DNA of 44,852 nt, taken from NCBI GenBank assembly GCA_007124045.1, contig SLFX01000023.1:1-44852 (forward strand), written 5' to 3'. Positions within the stretch are counted from its first letter, which is position 1. The number at the start of each line of letters is the position of its first letter. Shown one piece after another: positions 9,734-22,354 of the stretch. The translations under genes and the position numbers were made by a program. Under the pieces are notes generated by a model. The model saw nothing but the letters and a program-made list of their open reading frames with translations, searched no databases and was not told the DNA's origin. Origin of the DNA: Candidatus Delongbacteria bacterium (GTDB taxonomy: Bacteria > UBA4055).

Positions 9734-11611
9734 ATGGACGCATTTTTAAAAGTTCTGCTGGTTGATGCATCGAACGGCTTTTATAAGATCAGGCGATATA
9801 AAGTAGGAGATTATTTCGGTCCGGTTGATCTCGGAATACACATGTCCGATAATTACAGATCTTTGAACATCGGGACAGGGCTTTTTGCAGGATCAATTTT
9901 CCCCGGATCGAACAGACTTGTTTTTACCGGTTATTCGCCGTGCTGGAGAGGTTTTTATATTTCTTCCATGGGAGGAGCAGGGCTGGTTTTCGACAACCTC
10001 GGTATCAATATGGTAAGTATCGTGGGAAAAGCACCGTCTCCGTCTGTCCTGTATCTAAACAGGAATCACGGCGAGGAGATCGAGGTTGAGATAGCTCCTT
10101 TGGATATAGAGAGTGTCTGGAAAAGCGGAAGAAAAGGTATATATTCCCTTATGGACCATACATTTGAAAAATTCGCGGCAAGGTACGAGATTGACCCTAG
10201 GATACTTGCGACCGGTCCGGCAGCAAAAAATACCGATTTCGGAGGTATCTGCTCGGTGCCGGTGGTTAAAGGCAGGATTACTTATGTGGATACTTGGGCG
10301 GGCAGGGGAGGCTTCGGGTCCAAACTCTTTCAGGACTACGGCATAGCTTCAATCATCTACGGGGGAACTACTGTTGATGAGGATTTCAGGGACAGAAAAG
10401 TAGCTGACGAATGGTTCGGTCAAAAGTATCAGCAGAAGCTTGCGGCAAAGGATTTTGAGAGTACGACGAAATACCGGTTCGATCCCAAATTCGGTACCGG
10501 AGGAACTTTTGGGGTAAATTACGCCACTGTGAAAGGAAAGATCATAGCTTTCAACTACAAAACTATATATTCATCGGAAAAAGAGAGGCTTGAACTGAAT
10601 GAAAAACTCGTTTCGCAGCACTATTTAAAGCAGTTCAACGAGGAGACAATAGAGAAAAAACAGCAGGCTACATGCGGCGAACCGTGCTCTGCAGTATGTA
10701 AAAAGATGAACGGCGTTTATAAAAAGGATTACGAACCCTACCAGACAATGGGGCCTTTATGCGGGATCTTCGATCAGAGGGCCGCTGAAAAGCTTAACCA
10801 TTACTGCGATTCAATGGGTTTCGACGCTATAAACTGCGGATGTATTCTTTCGTGGTTCATGGAGCTGTTAGATGAAAAAATTCTGACAAAAGAAGAGCTC
10901 GGAGTAACGAAACTGCCCAGATTTTCGCCTGAGGGATTTGATGTAATAAATGATTCTATGCACAACGCCGAACTCGGAATAGAGCTGATCGATTCCATAC
11001 TCGAAGGCAAAGGAGATATTGACTTGTCCGAAGGAGTGAGGAAATGGGCACGCAGAATGCATAAAATGACAGGAAAAAAGATAATTGACAGATTCGTCTT
11101 CTCATCGAACGGAAGAAGAGGCTGGATGGCTCCGAACCAGTATTGGACTCCCGGCGTTCTTGCCCCGATGGCGATCATGGGTAAGTATTATATGTATTAC
11201 GGAAATGATTTTGTTCCTCCGAGAGACCTTGGAAGGTTCTGCGCGGAAAGACTGAAGCAGGAACTTGTTCTTGACAATGCCGGTATCTGCAGGTTCCACA
11301 GGGCGTGGGCAGAGGAAATGATGCCCGAGATCATCGGTTCTATCTACGGAATGAAGGATAAATTCAACTCTTCAGTATCATTCACCGCGAGCAGGATAAA
11401 TTCAAGGAACGCCTCAGTATTTCTCGAATCAGAAAGAAATATTGATCTCATTCATACTTTTCTGAAAAGAAAAAGTGACGAAGAGAAAGAGAACAGGCAG
11501 GAACTTCTTGACTGGATCGAACAGTTCGATAAGAACAAGTATGAGGCGGCTTTGAACTTCTGGTTCGAGATAAGGAAAGGTATAGACGAATCATTAAGAG
11601 ATTTTCAGTGA
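9734..11611 (+). CDS. Aldehyde:ferredoxin oxidoreductase family (tungsten-dependent type)
   Basis: MGGAGLVFDNLGINMVSIVGKA; GTGGTFGVNY; CX3CX3C cluster motif CGEPCSAVC with later SMGFDAINCGC. Confidence 0.88.
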   Translation: MDAFLKVLLVDASNGFYKIRRYKVGDYFGPVDLGIHMSDNYRSLNIGTGLFAGSIFPGSNRLVFTGYSPCWRGFYISSMGGAGLVFDNLGINMVSIVGKAPSPSVLYLNRNHGEEIEVEIAPLDIESVWKSGRKGIYSLMDHTFEKFAARYEIDPRILATGPAAKNTDFGGICSVPVVKGRITYVDTWAGRGGFGSKLFQDYGIASIIYGGTTVDEDFRDRKVADEWFGQKYQQKLAAKDFESTTKYRFDPKFGTGGTFGVNYATVKGKIIAFNYKTIYSSEKERLELNEKLVSQHYLKQFNEETIEKKQQATCGEPCSAVCKKMNGVYKKDYEPYQTMGPLCGIFDQRAAEKLNHYCDSMGFDAINCGCILSWFMELLDEKILTKEELGVTKLPRFSPEGFDVINDSMHNAELGIELIDSILEGKGDIDLSEGVRKWARRMHKMTGKKIIDRFVFSSNGRRGWMAPNQYWTPGVLAPMAIMGKYYMYYGNDFVPPRDLGRFCAERLKQELVLDNAGICRFHRAWAEEMMPEIIGSIYGMKDKFNSSVSFTASRINSRNASVFLESERNIDLIHTFLKRKSDEEKENRQELLDWIEQFDKNKYEAALNFWFEIRKGIDESLRDFQ

Positions 11612-16502: not shown

Positions 16503-16556
16503 AGCATTGTTGGAAAGTGTATAACTGCTTATTCTTAAAAGAAAAAGGAGACTGTG

Positions 16557-17324
16557 ATGTACAAAGTATCCTGTTTCATGTATTATCTGATGTTTGTTTT
16601 ACTGCTTCCGTTCATGTTCGCTTATGCAGACAGACCTGAGATTGATTTTGATCACGGTATGTTTGATTCTGTACTTAATAAATATGTCAGTAACGGACTT
16701 GTTGATTATAAGGCACTCAAATCGGACAGAAAAGAACTTGATGAGTATTTGAATAAATTGGCAGGTCTGGGCGCGAATGATTTTAAAAAAATGACGGAGA
16801 CGCATCAGCTTGCATACCTGATAAATCTATATAACGCCGAAACCTTAAGGCTGATAATTGATAACTATCCCGTTAGAGGTATCAGAAGCATCGGAGGTTT
16901 TTTCAAAAGTCCGTGGAGTTTGCCTGTTGTTTCGCTTTTCGGCAAGAAAATCAGTCTGGACGATCTGGAGCACGAGATTATCAGGGTAAATTATGATGAG
17001 CCCAGAATTCACGCTGCCCTTGTCTGTGCTGCAATAGGATGTCCGGAGCTGAGGAATGAAGCATACAGAGGCGGCGATTTGGACAGTCAGCTTGAATCTC
17101 AGATGAGAGGCTTTATGGGAGATTTAAACAAAAACAGCCTCGATATGTCTAAAAGGACTGCTAATCTTTCTCCGATATACAAGTGGTATTCCGAGGATTT
17201 CGAGAAAAAGACAACACTGCTTGACTATTTAAGAAACTACTGGCCTTTTGATGTTTCTGAAGTGAATTTTAAGGGCTGGAGGATCAGATATACTAAATAC
17301 GACTGGAGTCTTAATGAAAAATAA
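16557..17324 (+). CDS. DUF547 domain-containing protein, secreted
   Basis: Signal peptide; VDYKALKSDRKELDEYL ... HAALVCAAIGCPELRNEAY. Confidence 0.88.
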   Translation: MYKVSCFMYYLMFVLLLPFMFAYADRPEIDFDHGMFDSVLNKYVSNGLVDYKALKSDRKELDEYLNKLAGLGANDFKKMTETHQLAYLINLYNAETLRLIIDNYPVRGIRSIGGFFKSPWSLPVVSLFGKKISLDDLEHEIIRVNYDEPRIHAALVCAAIGCPELRNEAYRGGDLDSQLESQMRGFMGDLNKNSLDMSKRTANLSPIYKWYSEDFEKKTTLLDYLRNYWPFDVSEVNFKGWRIRYTKYDWSLNEK

Positions 17325-18036
17325 ATTTAAGGTCATCGCATGGGTGCTTGTACTTGCGGTCGTTATCATCCTCTTTCGCGTGTTTAACATACAGGATCAT
17401 CTCGCTAACATTCTTTCACGGATAGAAGATCTCGGGGTCGCAGGATATTTTGTATATATCCTTTTGTATATTGCTGCATGCGTTTTTCTGCTTCCCGGAT
17501 CGGTACTGACTTTAGGTGCAGGTTTTATATACGGTGTGGGCAAAGGGTCTGTTCTTGTTTCAGCAGCCTCAACTCTCGGGGCATCAGCGGCTTTTATCAT
17601 TGGAAGATATTTCGCCAGAGATATGGTAAGAAAAAAGATAGATTCTAAAAAGAGTTTCAAAGATATTGATGAAGCTGTTTCCAAAGAGGGCAGTAAGATA
17701 GTATTTCTTCTGAGGCTTTCTCCGGTTTTTCCTTTTAATATTCTCAATTATTCTCTCGGGCTTACAGGCATCAGATTCAGAGATTATTTTTTCGCTTCGT
17801 GGATAGGCATGATACCGGGAACAATGATGTTCGTTTATCTCGGTTCCCTCGCAGGCAGTCTTGCGTCTGTCGGTACGGATCAGGGCAGCGGACGGTCTGC
17901 TGCGGAATGGACACTTTACGGAGCCGGACTTGCAGCTACTGTCGCAGTGACTGTTTTTATAACTAAGATCGCACGAAATGCTTTAAATAGAAAATTACCG
18001 TTAAAGGACGGGGGAATGAATGAAGAACGGGTATGA
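17314..18036 (+). CDS. TVP38/TMEM64 (VTT) family membrane protein
   Basis: LPGSVLTLGAGFIYG, LRLSPVFPFNILNYSLGLTGIRFRDYFFASWIGMIPGT. Confidence 0.9.
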   Translation: MKNKFKVIAWVLVLAVVIILFRVFNIQDHLANILSRIEDLGVAGYFVYILLYIAACVFLLPGSVLTLGAGFIYGVGKGSVLVSAASTLGASAAFIIGRYFARDMVRKKIDSKKSFKDIDEAVSKEGSKIVFLLRLSPVFPFNILNYSLGLTGIRFRDYFFASWIGMIPGTMMFVYLGSLAGSLASVGTDQGSGRSAAEWTLYGAGLAATVAVTVFITKIARNALNRKLPLKDGGMNEERV

Positions 18037-19456
18037 TTATGATGTTGCGGTAATTGGCGGAGGCGGCGCGGGTCTTTCAGCTGCTCTTACAGCTTCCGGA
18101 TTCGGGAAAAAGACTGTTATCATCGAAAAGAACAAAACCGGAGGCGAGTGTACATGGTCGGGATGCATACCGACCAAGTCTCTTATCCATATTGCTCGTG
18201 GAGTTTCAGATTTCCGTACTCTTACTAAATTCTACGGACTTTCGGAAGAGTTTCTGAACAAAAAACCGGAAGGCGTACTCGATGAGGTCAGAAAGATCAT
18301 TTACAGGGTGTATTCCGGAGAAGATCCTGAAGCTCTTAAACAAAAAGGTATTGATGTAATACAAGAGGAAGCGCTTTTAAAAGACAGCACAACGATCTCA
18401 GTAGGCAACAAAACAATAAAAGCAAAAAAAATAATTCTCGCACTGGGGTCTTCACCGATCATACCCCGACTTAAAGGTCTCACATCAAATGACTGCCTGA
18501 CCAATGAGAATTTTTTTATGCAGAAAGAACTCCCTTCTTCGCTTATAATTCTGGGTGGAGGGCCTATCGGATCGGAACTTGCCCTTGCATCTTCAAGGCT
18601 CGGATGCAAAGTTACGATTGTTCAGTCGGGTCAATCTATACTTGCCCGTGAAGACAGAGAGCTTACCGCTTTACTGATGAAAAGGTTCATTGAGGAAGGT
18701 ATAGTTATCGAAACCGACTCCAGAGCATCGGAATTTCGAAAGAACGGCGATGAAGTCGAACTTGATATAAAAACATCATCAGGCGTAAAAAAGACATTGA
18801 AAGCCGATGCCCTTTTGTGCGCAACGGGAAGGTCGCCCAACACATCGGGAGCAGGACTTGATGAAGCGGGAGTAAAATATTCCAGAGACGGTATAATAAC
18901 AGATAAGTTTCTCCGTACATCTGTTCCCGGAGTATTTGCATGCGGGGATGTCGTCGGTCCGTACAGATTCAGTCATGTCTCAGGCAAAGAAGGTGTTACA
19001 GCCGCTCTGAACGCAATTCTTCCCTTCAAAACAGCAATGGATTATTCATCTGTGCTTTGGACAACCTTCACCGATCCGGAATTGAGCCGGTTAGGTTTAA
19101 CTTTTGAGGAAGCTTTAGAAAAATTTGGAAACAGGATCAGGCTTATTAAAATACCGTTTTCAGATATAGAGAGGGCAGTTACAGAGAATAGAACGGAAGG
19201 CATTGCCAAGTTCGTGCTTGACAGAAAAAACATGATACTCGGGGTTCACATACTCGGAGTTTCGGCGGGTGAGATCATGCACGAAGCCGCTCTTTTAAAA
19301 AGATCCGGAAAGCCGCTTTCATACGCAAGAAAATATATGCACGCATATCCCGGATACTCCGATATTATTGCCAAAGCGGCACAAAAAGCTTATATTGAGA
19401 GTATAAATGACAATCTGATCGTAAAAATTATCAAGTATCTCAAAAAAGGAGTATAA
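18020..19456 (+). CDS. FAD-dependent pyridine nucleotide-disulfide oxidoreductase (mercuric-reductase-like)
   Basis: GGGGAGLSAAL; redox-active GGECTWSGCIPTK (CX4C); VFACGDVVG. Confidence 0.9.
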   Translation: MKNGYDYDVAVIGGGGAGLSAALTASGFGKKTVIIEKNKTGGECTWSGCIPTKSLIHIARGVSDFRTLTKFYGLSEEFLNKKPEGVLDEVRKIIYRVYSGEDPEALKQKGIDVIQEEALLKDSTTISVGNKTIKAKKIILALGSSPIIPRLKGLTSNDCLTNENFFMQKELPSSLIILGGGPIGSELALASSRLGCKVTIVQSGQSILAREDRELTALLMKRFIEEGIVIETDSRASEFRKNGDEVELDIKTSSGVKKTLKADALLCATGRSPNTSGAGLDEAGVKYSRDGIITDKFLRTSVPGVFACGDVVGPYRFSHVSGKEGVTAALNAILPFKTAMDYSSVLWTTFTDPELSRLGLTFEEALEKFGNRIRLIKIPFSDIERAVTENRTEGIAKFVLDRKNMILGVHILGVSAGEIMHEAALLKRSGKPLSYARKYMHAYPGYSDIIAKAAQKAYIESINDNLIVKIIKYLKKGV

Positions 19457-20482
19457 ATGGGCGAAGGATCTTGTAAGCAGGATACGGTTAAATGCGTAAT
19501 TGACAGGGCGCAATTCAATGCGGGTGAAATGCATTTTAAACAAACGCTCGAATCAAATTCGGTGATCATAGATAAGTCGGATAAAATAGAAATACTTCAG
19601 CTGAACATCACCCGGAAATGCAATCTTAATTGCAATCACTGCCATGTAAGATCGGGGCCTGACAGGACAGAAAATATGAGTGATGAAGTTTTAGAAAAAT
19701 GCATAGAGCTGGCTCACTGCTCTTCCGTGGGAACAATAGACATAACCGGCGGATCACCTGAAATGCATCCGGGTATAGAATTTCTGATAAAAGAACTGTC
19801 AAAAACTAAAAAGCGGCTTCTTGTAAGATCGAACCTTGCTATTCTCACCGAACCGGGATATGAAAGGTTTTATGATATTTATAAAGACAATAGAGTCGAA
19901 ATAATCGGTTCTTTCCCTCACTATTCAAAGGAAGAATTCGAAAGTCAGAGAGGCCTCAGGGTTTTTGATAAGTGTATTGAAGCTTTGAAAATGCTGAACA
20001 GTATCGGGTACGGCCAAAAAGGTTCAGGTCTTATTCTTGATCTTGTTTACAATCCTTCCGGGGCTTTCATGCCCGGTGATCAAAGTCTGTTAGAAAACGA
20101 ATTCAAAATGAGGCTGAAAGAACAGTTCGATCTTAATTTTAATAATCTTTTCTGCATGACCAATATGCCTGTAGGAAGATTTCTTGACTCTCTTACCGAA
20201 AACGGAAATTATGAAGACTACATCGCAGAACTTGTTAACTCTTTTAATCCGGCAGCCGCACAGGGAGTAATGTGCAGGAATACTTTGAGCGTTGGTCCTG
20301 ATGGGGGAATATACAATTGCGACTTCAACCAGATGATGGAATTAGGTACTTCAGTAAAGGGAGCGAGAAATGTGTCCGGGCTTGAATGCGGCGATCTTGA
20401 AAATGTCAGAATTATTACCGCAAATCACTGTTACGGCTGTACGGCAGGCAGTGGATCAGGCTGACAGGGATCAGCTTCATAG
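19457..20482 (+). CDS. arsS: ArsS-like radical SAM/Cys-rich (rSAM-selenodomain type) protein; probable selenoprotein with TGA at 20462-20464 read as Sec
   Basis: Radical SAM CNLNCNHC; C-terminal CRNTLSVGPDGGIYNCDFNQMMELG and HCYGCTAGSGSG-[TGA]-QGSAS-TAG; the ORF track stops at the TGA (20464). Confidence 0.75.
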
Positions 20483-20490
20483 TTATGAAA
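20465..20490 (+). promoter_or_regulatory. Candidate bacterial SECIS hairpin just 3' of the in-frame TGA
   Basis: UUCAU (20476-20480)-AGUU loop-AUGAA (20485-20489); apical loop starts 17 nt after the TGA (16 nt between) with G as second loop base. Confidence 0.5.
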
Positions 20491-21792
20491 AGAAAAATAA
20501 TATTGATAACGAGATACCCCGAGCCGGGAAAATGCAAGCAGAGACTGTCAATTCTTGCTGGAGAAGCAAATGCCGCGCATATTCAGAAGATTATGATCAT
20601 GACAATACTCGAATCCTGCAGGGAATACCTTTCAACAGATCCGGCGGCCTTAGAGGTTTGTTACACGGGGGCGTCAGAGGAAAAAATGAGGTCAATATGC
20701 GGAGATGCTCTTTACAAAGAACAGACTGAAGGAGATCTCGGATCTAAACTGAGTACAGCATTCGAAAGATCCTTCGATGAAGGATATTCTGAGGTTCTGG
20801 CAATAGGAACAGATATTCCTGATATTTCATTAGCTGTGATCCAATCGGCTTTTGATTCTTTAAAAACAAATGATATTGTTGTCGGACCTGCTTATGACGG
20901 CGGATACTATCTTATCGGAATGAAATCGGGCCATCCGAAACTGTTTACGCAAGAAATTCCATGGGGCGGAGACAGAGTGTTTGAAAAAACGCTCAGGATC
21001 GCAGGAAAAAGGTCACTTTCGGCAGGTGTTTTAAAAAAATTACTAGATATTGACCGTCCCGAAGATATATTCAGGATAAATAATCCGAAGATCGTAAATG
21101 ATCTTCCAAATCCGCTGATCTCTGTTATAATTCCGGTGCTGAACGAGGAAAAATACCTGGCAGGAACTCTCGAATTTTTCAGAGACAGAAAAAATATTGA
21201 GGTCATAGTTTCAGACGGGGGCAGCACTGACGGTACTGTCGGGATTGCCGAGAGATTCAGCTGCAAAGTTATAAGATCAGATAAGGGCAGGGCCGTTCAG
21301 CAGAATTCAGGAGCTGCTGCCGCAGGCTCATCCGTACTGCTTTTTCTTCATGCAGATACAATTCTGCCGCAAGATTTCGAATACGAAGTGTTTAAAACTC
21401 TTTCGGCGAAAAAAACAGCCTGCGGGGCCTTTAACTTGAAGATAAGCGGTAAAAAGAAACACCTTCTATTTGTAAGTCTTCTTATTAACATCAGAAGCAC
21501 TTTGTTCGGATCTCCATATGGAGATCAGGCACTATTTATGACGAAAAGGACATTTGAAAAAGCAGAAGGATTCAAAGAACTTTTTATTATGGAGGATTAC
21601 GAATTTGTTTCAAGGTTAAAAAAGACCGGCAGGATAAGAATATCGAGGAAAAAAGTGATAACATCAGGCAGAAGATGGGATACTGTTGGTTTGTTGAGGA
21701 CATTTTTTATCAATATGAAGATGAGAATATTGTTTCATGCGGGAACAGATTCCGAAAAACTCCGTAGAATTTACTATAAACAAAGGATTTGA
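20485..21792 (+). CDS. Fused rSAM/selenodomain-associated transferase 1 (TIGR04282-like) and transferase 2 (TIGR04283-like glycosyltransferase)
   Basis: N-terminal ITRYPEPGKCKQRL...GTDIPDIS...DGGYYLIG; C-terminal ISVIIPVLNEEKYLAGTL...VSDGGSTDGT...FLHADT. Confidence 0.88.
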   Translation: MKRKIILITRYPEPGKCKQRLSILAGEANAAHIQKIMIMTILESCREYLSTDPAALEVCYTGASEEKMRSICGDALYKEQTEGDLGSKLSTAFERSFDEGYSEVLAIGTDIPDISLAVIQSAFDSLKTNDIVVGPAYDGGYYLIGMKSGHPKLFTQEIPWGGDRVFEKTLRIAGKRSLSAGVLKKLLDIDRPEDIFRINNPKIVNDLPNPLISVIIPVLNEEKYLAGTLEFFRDRKNIEVIVSDGGSTDGTVGIAERFSCKVIRSDKGRAVQQNSGAAAAGSSVLLFLHADTILPQDFEYEVFKTLSAKKTACGAFNLKISGKKKHLLFVSLLINIRSTLFGSPYGDQALFMTKRTFEKAEGFKELFIMEDYEFVSRLKKTGRIRISRKKVITSGRRWDTVGLLRTFFINMKMRILFHAGTDSEKLRRIYYKQRI

Positions 21793-21793
21793 G

Positions 21794-22354
21794 ATGCCGA
21801 GAATAAAAGTTATTGAACATGAAGATGCGCAGGGAGATTTAAAAGAAGTATATGATAGCCTGTTAAAAAGCAGAGGAAAGCTCGCGGCCGTTCATAAAAT
21901 CCAGAGCCTGAGGCCGAAAAGCATCACTGCACACATGGACCTTTACATGGAAATTATGTTTTCGCGTTCTGAGCTTTCGAGGGCACAGAGGGAAATGATA
22001 GGGGTAGTAGTATCATATGCGAACGGATGCAAATACTGCACAAGGCATCATGCTCATGCGCTGAACTTCTACTGGAAAGATGATATCAAGACGGAAAAGC
22101 TCATAAACGGCAATTTTACAGATATTCTGTCTGAAAGCGACAGAGTCCTCTGTGATCTTGCGTTAAGTCTGACCCTTGAACCGGGTAAACATGAAAAAAA
22201 CGATTTTATAGAGGTACTCAAAGAGCGTGGATATAGCGATGAGGCTGTTCTTGATGTAGTTCTGGTGATATCGTATTTTAATTTCGTGAACAGAATAGTC
22301 CTTTCACTTGGTGTTGCTTTTGATGAGAATGAAGCCAAGGGATATAATTACTGA
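21794..22354 (+). CDS. AhpD/carboxymuconolactone-decarboxylase-like peroxidase-related protein
   Basis: SRAQREMIGVVVSYANGCKYCTRHHAHAL (CxxC...H). Confidence 0.85.
   Translation: MPRIKVIEHEDAQGDLKEVYDSLLKSRGKLAAVHKIQSLRPKSITAHMDLYMEIMFSRSELSRAQREMIGVVVSYANGCKYCTRHHAHALNFYWKDDIKTEKLINGNFTDILSESDRVLCDLALSLTLEPGKHEKNDFIEVLKERGYSDEAVLDVVLVISYFNFVNRIVLSLGVAFDENEAKGYNY

Follow-up and report, generated by a model that had tools for sequence, protein, structure and literature searches.

An in-frame UGA at the last invariant cysteine position of an arsS gene from Candidatus Delongbacteria is very probably read as selenocysteine

Does the arsS-like gene of this locus end at the TGA where its open reading frame was called, or is that codon read as selenocysteine (Sec), so that the protein continues to a second stop just ahead of the next gene? 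The window, that is, the whole stretch of 44,852 nucleotides that was analysed, carries a forward-strand ORF at 19457-20464 ending NHCYGCTAGSGSG-TGA, and its letters and coordinates match those reported in the earlier note. Translation past the TGA gives, as was also claimed there, the end ...GSGSG-U-QGSAS and a TAG at 20480-20482, 2 nt before the ATG of the next gene at 20485. Two features are central to the argument:

19457-20482, forward strand: arsS read to its full length, 341 aa including Sec336 and ending at the TAG at 20480-20482
20462-20464, forward strand: UGA codon very probably read as selenocysteine (residue 336), in a column that is Cys in the homologues

Protein family and the cysteine column

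The product is a member of the ArsS family, in agreement with the earlier assignment: the truncated ORF matches TIGR04167 with 389.1 bits (cut-off 300) over profile positions 4-298 of 303, and the read-through protein, with Cys written for Sec, scores 397.8 bits over positions 4-302 of 303. Matches to Radical_SAM and DUF3641 (Pfam) were also obtained. The radical SAM motif CxxxCxxC is present, as are the further family-invariant cysteines 273, 288, 325 and 328, and the UGA occupies position 336. A search of PDB sequences with ArsS returned distant radical SAM proteins as the only matches and no ArsS structure; an AlphaFold2 model made from a two-row alignment has a mean pLDDT of 45, too low to be of use.

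Selenoproteins are already known in this family. The NCBI name of TIGR04167 is 'arsenosugar biosynthesis radical SAM (seleno)protein ArsS' (rSAM_SeCys), with AAR34688.1 as the selenoprotein example, and the family listings in PMC9312934 and PMC13188914 (motif GxxU) trace such proteins to a prediction by Zhang and Gladyshev 2005. The window protein resembles them in having Sec near the C terminus and, three positions ahead of it, a Gly (GxxU, in the window protein G333-S-G-U336), in a family where most homologues have Cys; it differs from them in coming from a small phylum with no other ArsS among the genomes examined, and in its long branch.

The comparison was made with 31 distinct homologues, which comprise the protein of Sporomusa malonica, six plasmid copies (Hymenobacter, Acinetobacter, Cupriavidus, Pseudanabaena, Thiodictyon and Burkholderia thailandensis) and 24 loci from genomes of Sporomusa's phylum. 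A single-sequence scan of genome contigs gave one locus; the other homologues were gathered by searching genomes around it and from plasmids. The set spans Bacillota, Bacteroidota, Pseudomonadota and Cyanobacteriota, and every member is of the Cys form, with no Sec-bearing ArsS among them. The claim that the TGA sits on the conserved C-terminal cysteine is borne out by the alignment, where every one of the 31 homologues has Cys in the UGA column; none of the 31 stops ahead of this last Cys, an arrangement that the earlier note had named as evidence against its reading. Eight cysteines are invariant in the family, the UGA position being the last of them, and on either side of it no homologue departs from G333, S334 or G338 (31/31). 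Judged from the alignment, this pairing of TGA with Cys is far beyond chance. The Cys-form proteins of S. malonica and of the Hymenobacter, Acinetobacter, Pseudanabaena and Thiodictyon plasmids are 39-45% identical to the window ArsS; they share all eight invariant Cys positions and have similar neighbours, and the difference lies in the last position, Cys in these proteins and predicted Sec in the window copy.

The window ArsS forms the longest branch of the family tree, where its placement is not firm; nevertheless, of the 44 residues that are invariant in other members it retains 42 and departs at two (L205M and S335G), so that the gene is constrained and not decaying. Residue 335 (GGC, 20459-20461), just before the predicted Sec, is Gly in the window copy versus Ser in all 31 Cys-form homologues, and its GGC codon is also part of a hairpin that contains the UGA. 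Viral contigs searched for ArsS homologues yielded none, and a search of plasmids by DNA similarity to arsS gave no match.

Selenocysteine machinery and the candidate SECIS

The source genome (1.99 Mb, 184 contigs, 95% complete) contains selA, selB, selC and selD, the complete set that the earlier note had proposed to look for. The tRNA-Sec (selC) has a UCA anticodon and scores 60 bits against a cut-off of 47; in the family search of the genome, SelB scored 361 bits, SelA 531 bits and SelD 348 bits, the last with one in-frame TGA that needs read-through (VKAAG-U-AGK).

Source genome, contig C172, 12068-12988: selD, itself a selenoprotein gene, with the in-frame TGA and the strong hairpin AGGUCC-GGA-GGACCU

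The same in-frame TGA is found in SelD of 11 of 12 other genomes of the phylum, the twelfth being a fragment that starts past the site, and Sec decoding thus appears to be needed for SelD. The SelD hairpins of these 11 relatives are similar and lie at the same distance from the TGA, with a GUCC core conserved in nearly all. Several relatives also have a Sec-containing formate dehydrogenase alpha subunit (FdhA), for which no match (TIGR01591) was found in the source genome; ArsS and SelD may therefore be among the few reasons for Sec decoding being kept there. A genome-wide reassignment of UGA was considered and rejected: TGA ends 16 of the 34 window genes checked, which makes it an ordinary stop in an unchanged code, and the tRNA-Trp anticodon is CCA.

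Two overlapping structures can be drawn around and behind the UGA of arsS, with one base in common:

20476-20489, forward strand: candidate bSECIS hairpin TTCAT-AGTT-ATGAA, with a stem of 5 bp and the loop AGUU
20459-20476, forward strand: alternative hairpin enclosing the UGA, GGCUGA-CAGGGA-UCAGCU, -6.4 kcal/mol

The first of these had been described as fitting the bSECIS consensus, a description that holds for its presence and geometry and is overstated for its stability. The published bSECIS model sets limits on loop length (3-9 nt), stem length (4-16 bp), distance from the UGA (16-37 nt) and energy (-7.5 kcal/mol or lower), and requires G at one of the first two loop positions (PMC13188914). 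From the UGA it is 11 nt to the stem of the candidate and 16 nt to its loop, in which G is the second base, but its folding energy of -0.7 (eval) to -1.7 (fold) kcal/mol misses the energy cut-off. This miss weakens the claim about the SECIS more than the claim about Sec, since a subset of putative bSECIS elements falls outside the model (PMC13188914).

How often such a hairpin follows a TGA was estimated from 3,835 TGAs in sequence from the source genome. By the generic bSECIS rule, a hairpin equal to or better than that of ArsS follows 26% of them, so the hairpin alone says little and is not beyond chance. With limits derived from the phylum's SelD and FdhA elements (loop start at 16-19 nt, loop of 3-5 nt, stem of 5 bp or more), the share of TGAs that pass is 3.3%, and 1.9% have a hairpin as stable as that of ArsS; these figures are somewhat flattering because the ArsS hairpin was already in view when the limits were chosen. 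A stricter null, in which the loop G had to lie exactly at base 18, is passed by 0.6% of TGAs; it was set aside as too favourable, given that the loops of the FdhA elements of relatives start 18-19 nt after the UGA. The SelD elements of the phylum have stems starting about 10-11 nt after the UGA and a loop G at the 18th base, the very position of the loop G in ArsS. The likeness does not extend to strength: the SelD and FdhA elements range from -2.5 to -9.7 kcal/mol, and the SelD stems are conserved and GC-rich (GUCC-GGA-GGAC), whereas the ArsS stem consists of five mostly A-U pairs.

The UGA could, alternatively, be read as Sec with SelB recruited by some other structure, for instance the hairpin at 20459-20476 or a larger fold. 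This is a possible but distinctly less probable arrangement. The hairpin enclosing the UGA is far more stable (-6.4 versus -1.7 kcal/mol), and elements outside the bSECIS model exist, as already mentioned. In RNAfold, which the earlier note had suggested as a check, the 20476-20489 hairpin can form and a longer stretch favours the UGA-containing one, which may compete with it before the ribosome arrives. On the other hand, this latter hairpin would be melted with the UGA in the A site, and the downstream candidate places its loop G as this genome's SelD does, in a clade-calibrated geometry matched as well by about 2% of TGAs. The hairpin at 20476-20489 is thus likely, though unproven, to be the SECIS.

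The TAG of arsS provides the last base of the 5' arm and the start of the loop of this hairpin, and the AUG of the next gene lies in its 3' arm. With both codons inside one structure, it is conceivable that SelB binding couples Sec insertion in ArsS to the translation start of the glycosyltransferase that follows; such coupling is improbable, and if it were true, the arsenosugar pathway would be selenium-responsive.

A genuine stop, a base error or selenocysteine

Two readings in which no Sec is inserted have to be weighed. The TGA might be a genuine stop, with ArsS six residues shorter and its last Cys lost by mutation or adaptation, and the weak candidate SECIS and the position of the window copy on the longest branch of the family would be in agreement with this. 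Nevertheless, the loss would have to strike exactly the codon of a Cys kept in all 31 homologues, in a genome whose Sec machinery is complete, and the tail behind the TGA is in frame for the xG(S/A) end of the family and terminates at the usual place; a genuine stop is very improbable. Less probable still is a base error in the metagenome assembly turning a Cys codon (TGC or TGT) into TGA, as could be suspected from a single genome with no other ArsS among the phylum genomes examined for comparison, since such errors are rare, this one must fall, in a Sec-decoding organism, on the codon that is Sec in other family members (PMC9312934), and the hairpin behind the codon, though weak, is in the right place.

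Decoding of arsS with Sec, the ORF call being that of a truncated selenoprotein, is thus the best explanation and very probably the correct one, because the TGA falls on an invariant Cys, the homology continues beyond it (with G338 invariant and a higher profile score), the Sec machinery is present and TGA is otherwise an ordinary stop in the window. Against it stand the weakness of the candidate SECIS and the more stable hairpin that overlaps it, the Gly at residue 335, the purely Cys-form set of homologues and the lack of an arsenite methyltransferase match over cut-off in the genome. The earlier proposal that the call is short by six C-terminal residues, including Sec, is upheld on the same grounds. 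SelB and tRNA-Sec would decode the UGA at 20462-20464 as Sec, with the short hairpin at 20476-20489 as the probable guiding element, and translation would terminate at the TAG at 20480-20482. Sec336, in place of the last invariant Cys of a C-terminal Cys-rich domain, would presumably act as an arsenic or iron-sulfur ligand or as a redox residue.

Operon context, arsenic pathway and meaning

The gene stands in an operon context with the following forward-strand neighbours:

16554-17324, forward strand: DUF547 protein (PF04784, 5.5e-23)
17314-18036, forward strand: TVP38/VTT-domain membrane protein (PF09335, 2.5e-32)
18020-19456, forward strand: FAD/NAD disulfide oxidoreductase, MerA/lipoamide-dehydrogenase-like (Pyr_redox_2, 3.4e-62; MerA profile 323.6 bits, below its cut-off)
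20485-21792, forward strand: fused TIGR04282 and TIGR04283 arsenosugar-biosynthesis glycosyltransferase (183.9 and 240.6 bits, both over cut-off)
21737-22354, forward strand: AhpD/peroxidase-related protein, CxxC form (TIGR01926, 129.9 bits)

Overlapping sets of glycosyltransferases, VTT protein, FAD oxidoreductase and DUF547 protein occur at the ArsS loci of Acinetobacter, Pseudanabaena and Thiodictyon plasmids. The genomic company of arsenosugar genes is present at the window arsS: TIGR04282 and TIGR04283 are fused in the next gene, and the plasmid loci examined carry one or the other as a separate gene. That ArsS adenosylates arsenic in oxo-arsenosugar synthesis is established for the family (Cheng et al. 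2021, as cited in PMC12159101); the window protein would probably join the 5'-deoxyadenosyl group of SAM to methylated arsenic(III), an early step towards arsenosugars. A search for the arsenite methyltransferase ArsM found nothing over the NF008823 cut-off in this approximately 95% complete genome (best score 25.9 bits; a known arsenosugar ArsM scores 121 bits with the same model).

Elsewhere in the window, the gene at 9734-11611 encodes an aldehyde/glyceraldehyde-3-phosphate ferredoxin oxidoreductase-like protein (NF040818, 331 bits, below the cut-off of 1300), which is probably a tungsten or molybdenum enzyme.

Among 13 genomes of the phylum, ArsS was found in the window genome and in none of the 12 others, a restriction that may reflect horizontal acquisition. 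The family of Sec-containing ArsS is already known, and what is new is this instance in a small phylum; it adds another lineage to the distribution of Sec-ArsS and leaves the understanding of the family unchanged. The locus also offers a test case for a SECIS with a weak stem, which can be compared with the strong SelD and FdhA elements of the same clade. Finally, standard gene calling drops six residues from this protein, including one that is invariant in the family and probably functional, and the annotation should be corrected.
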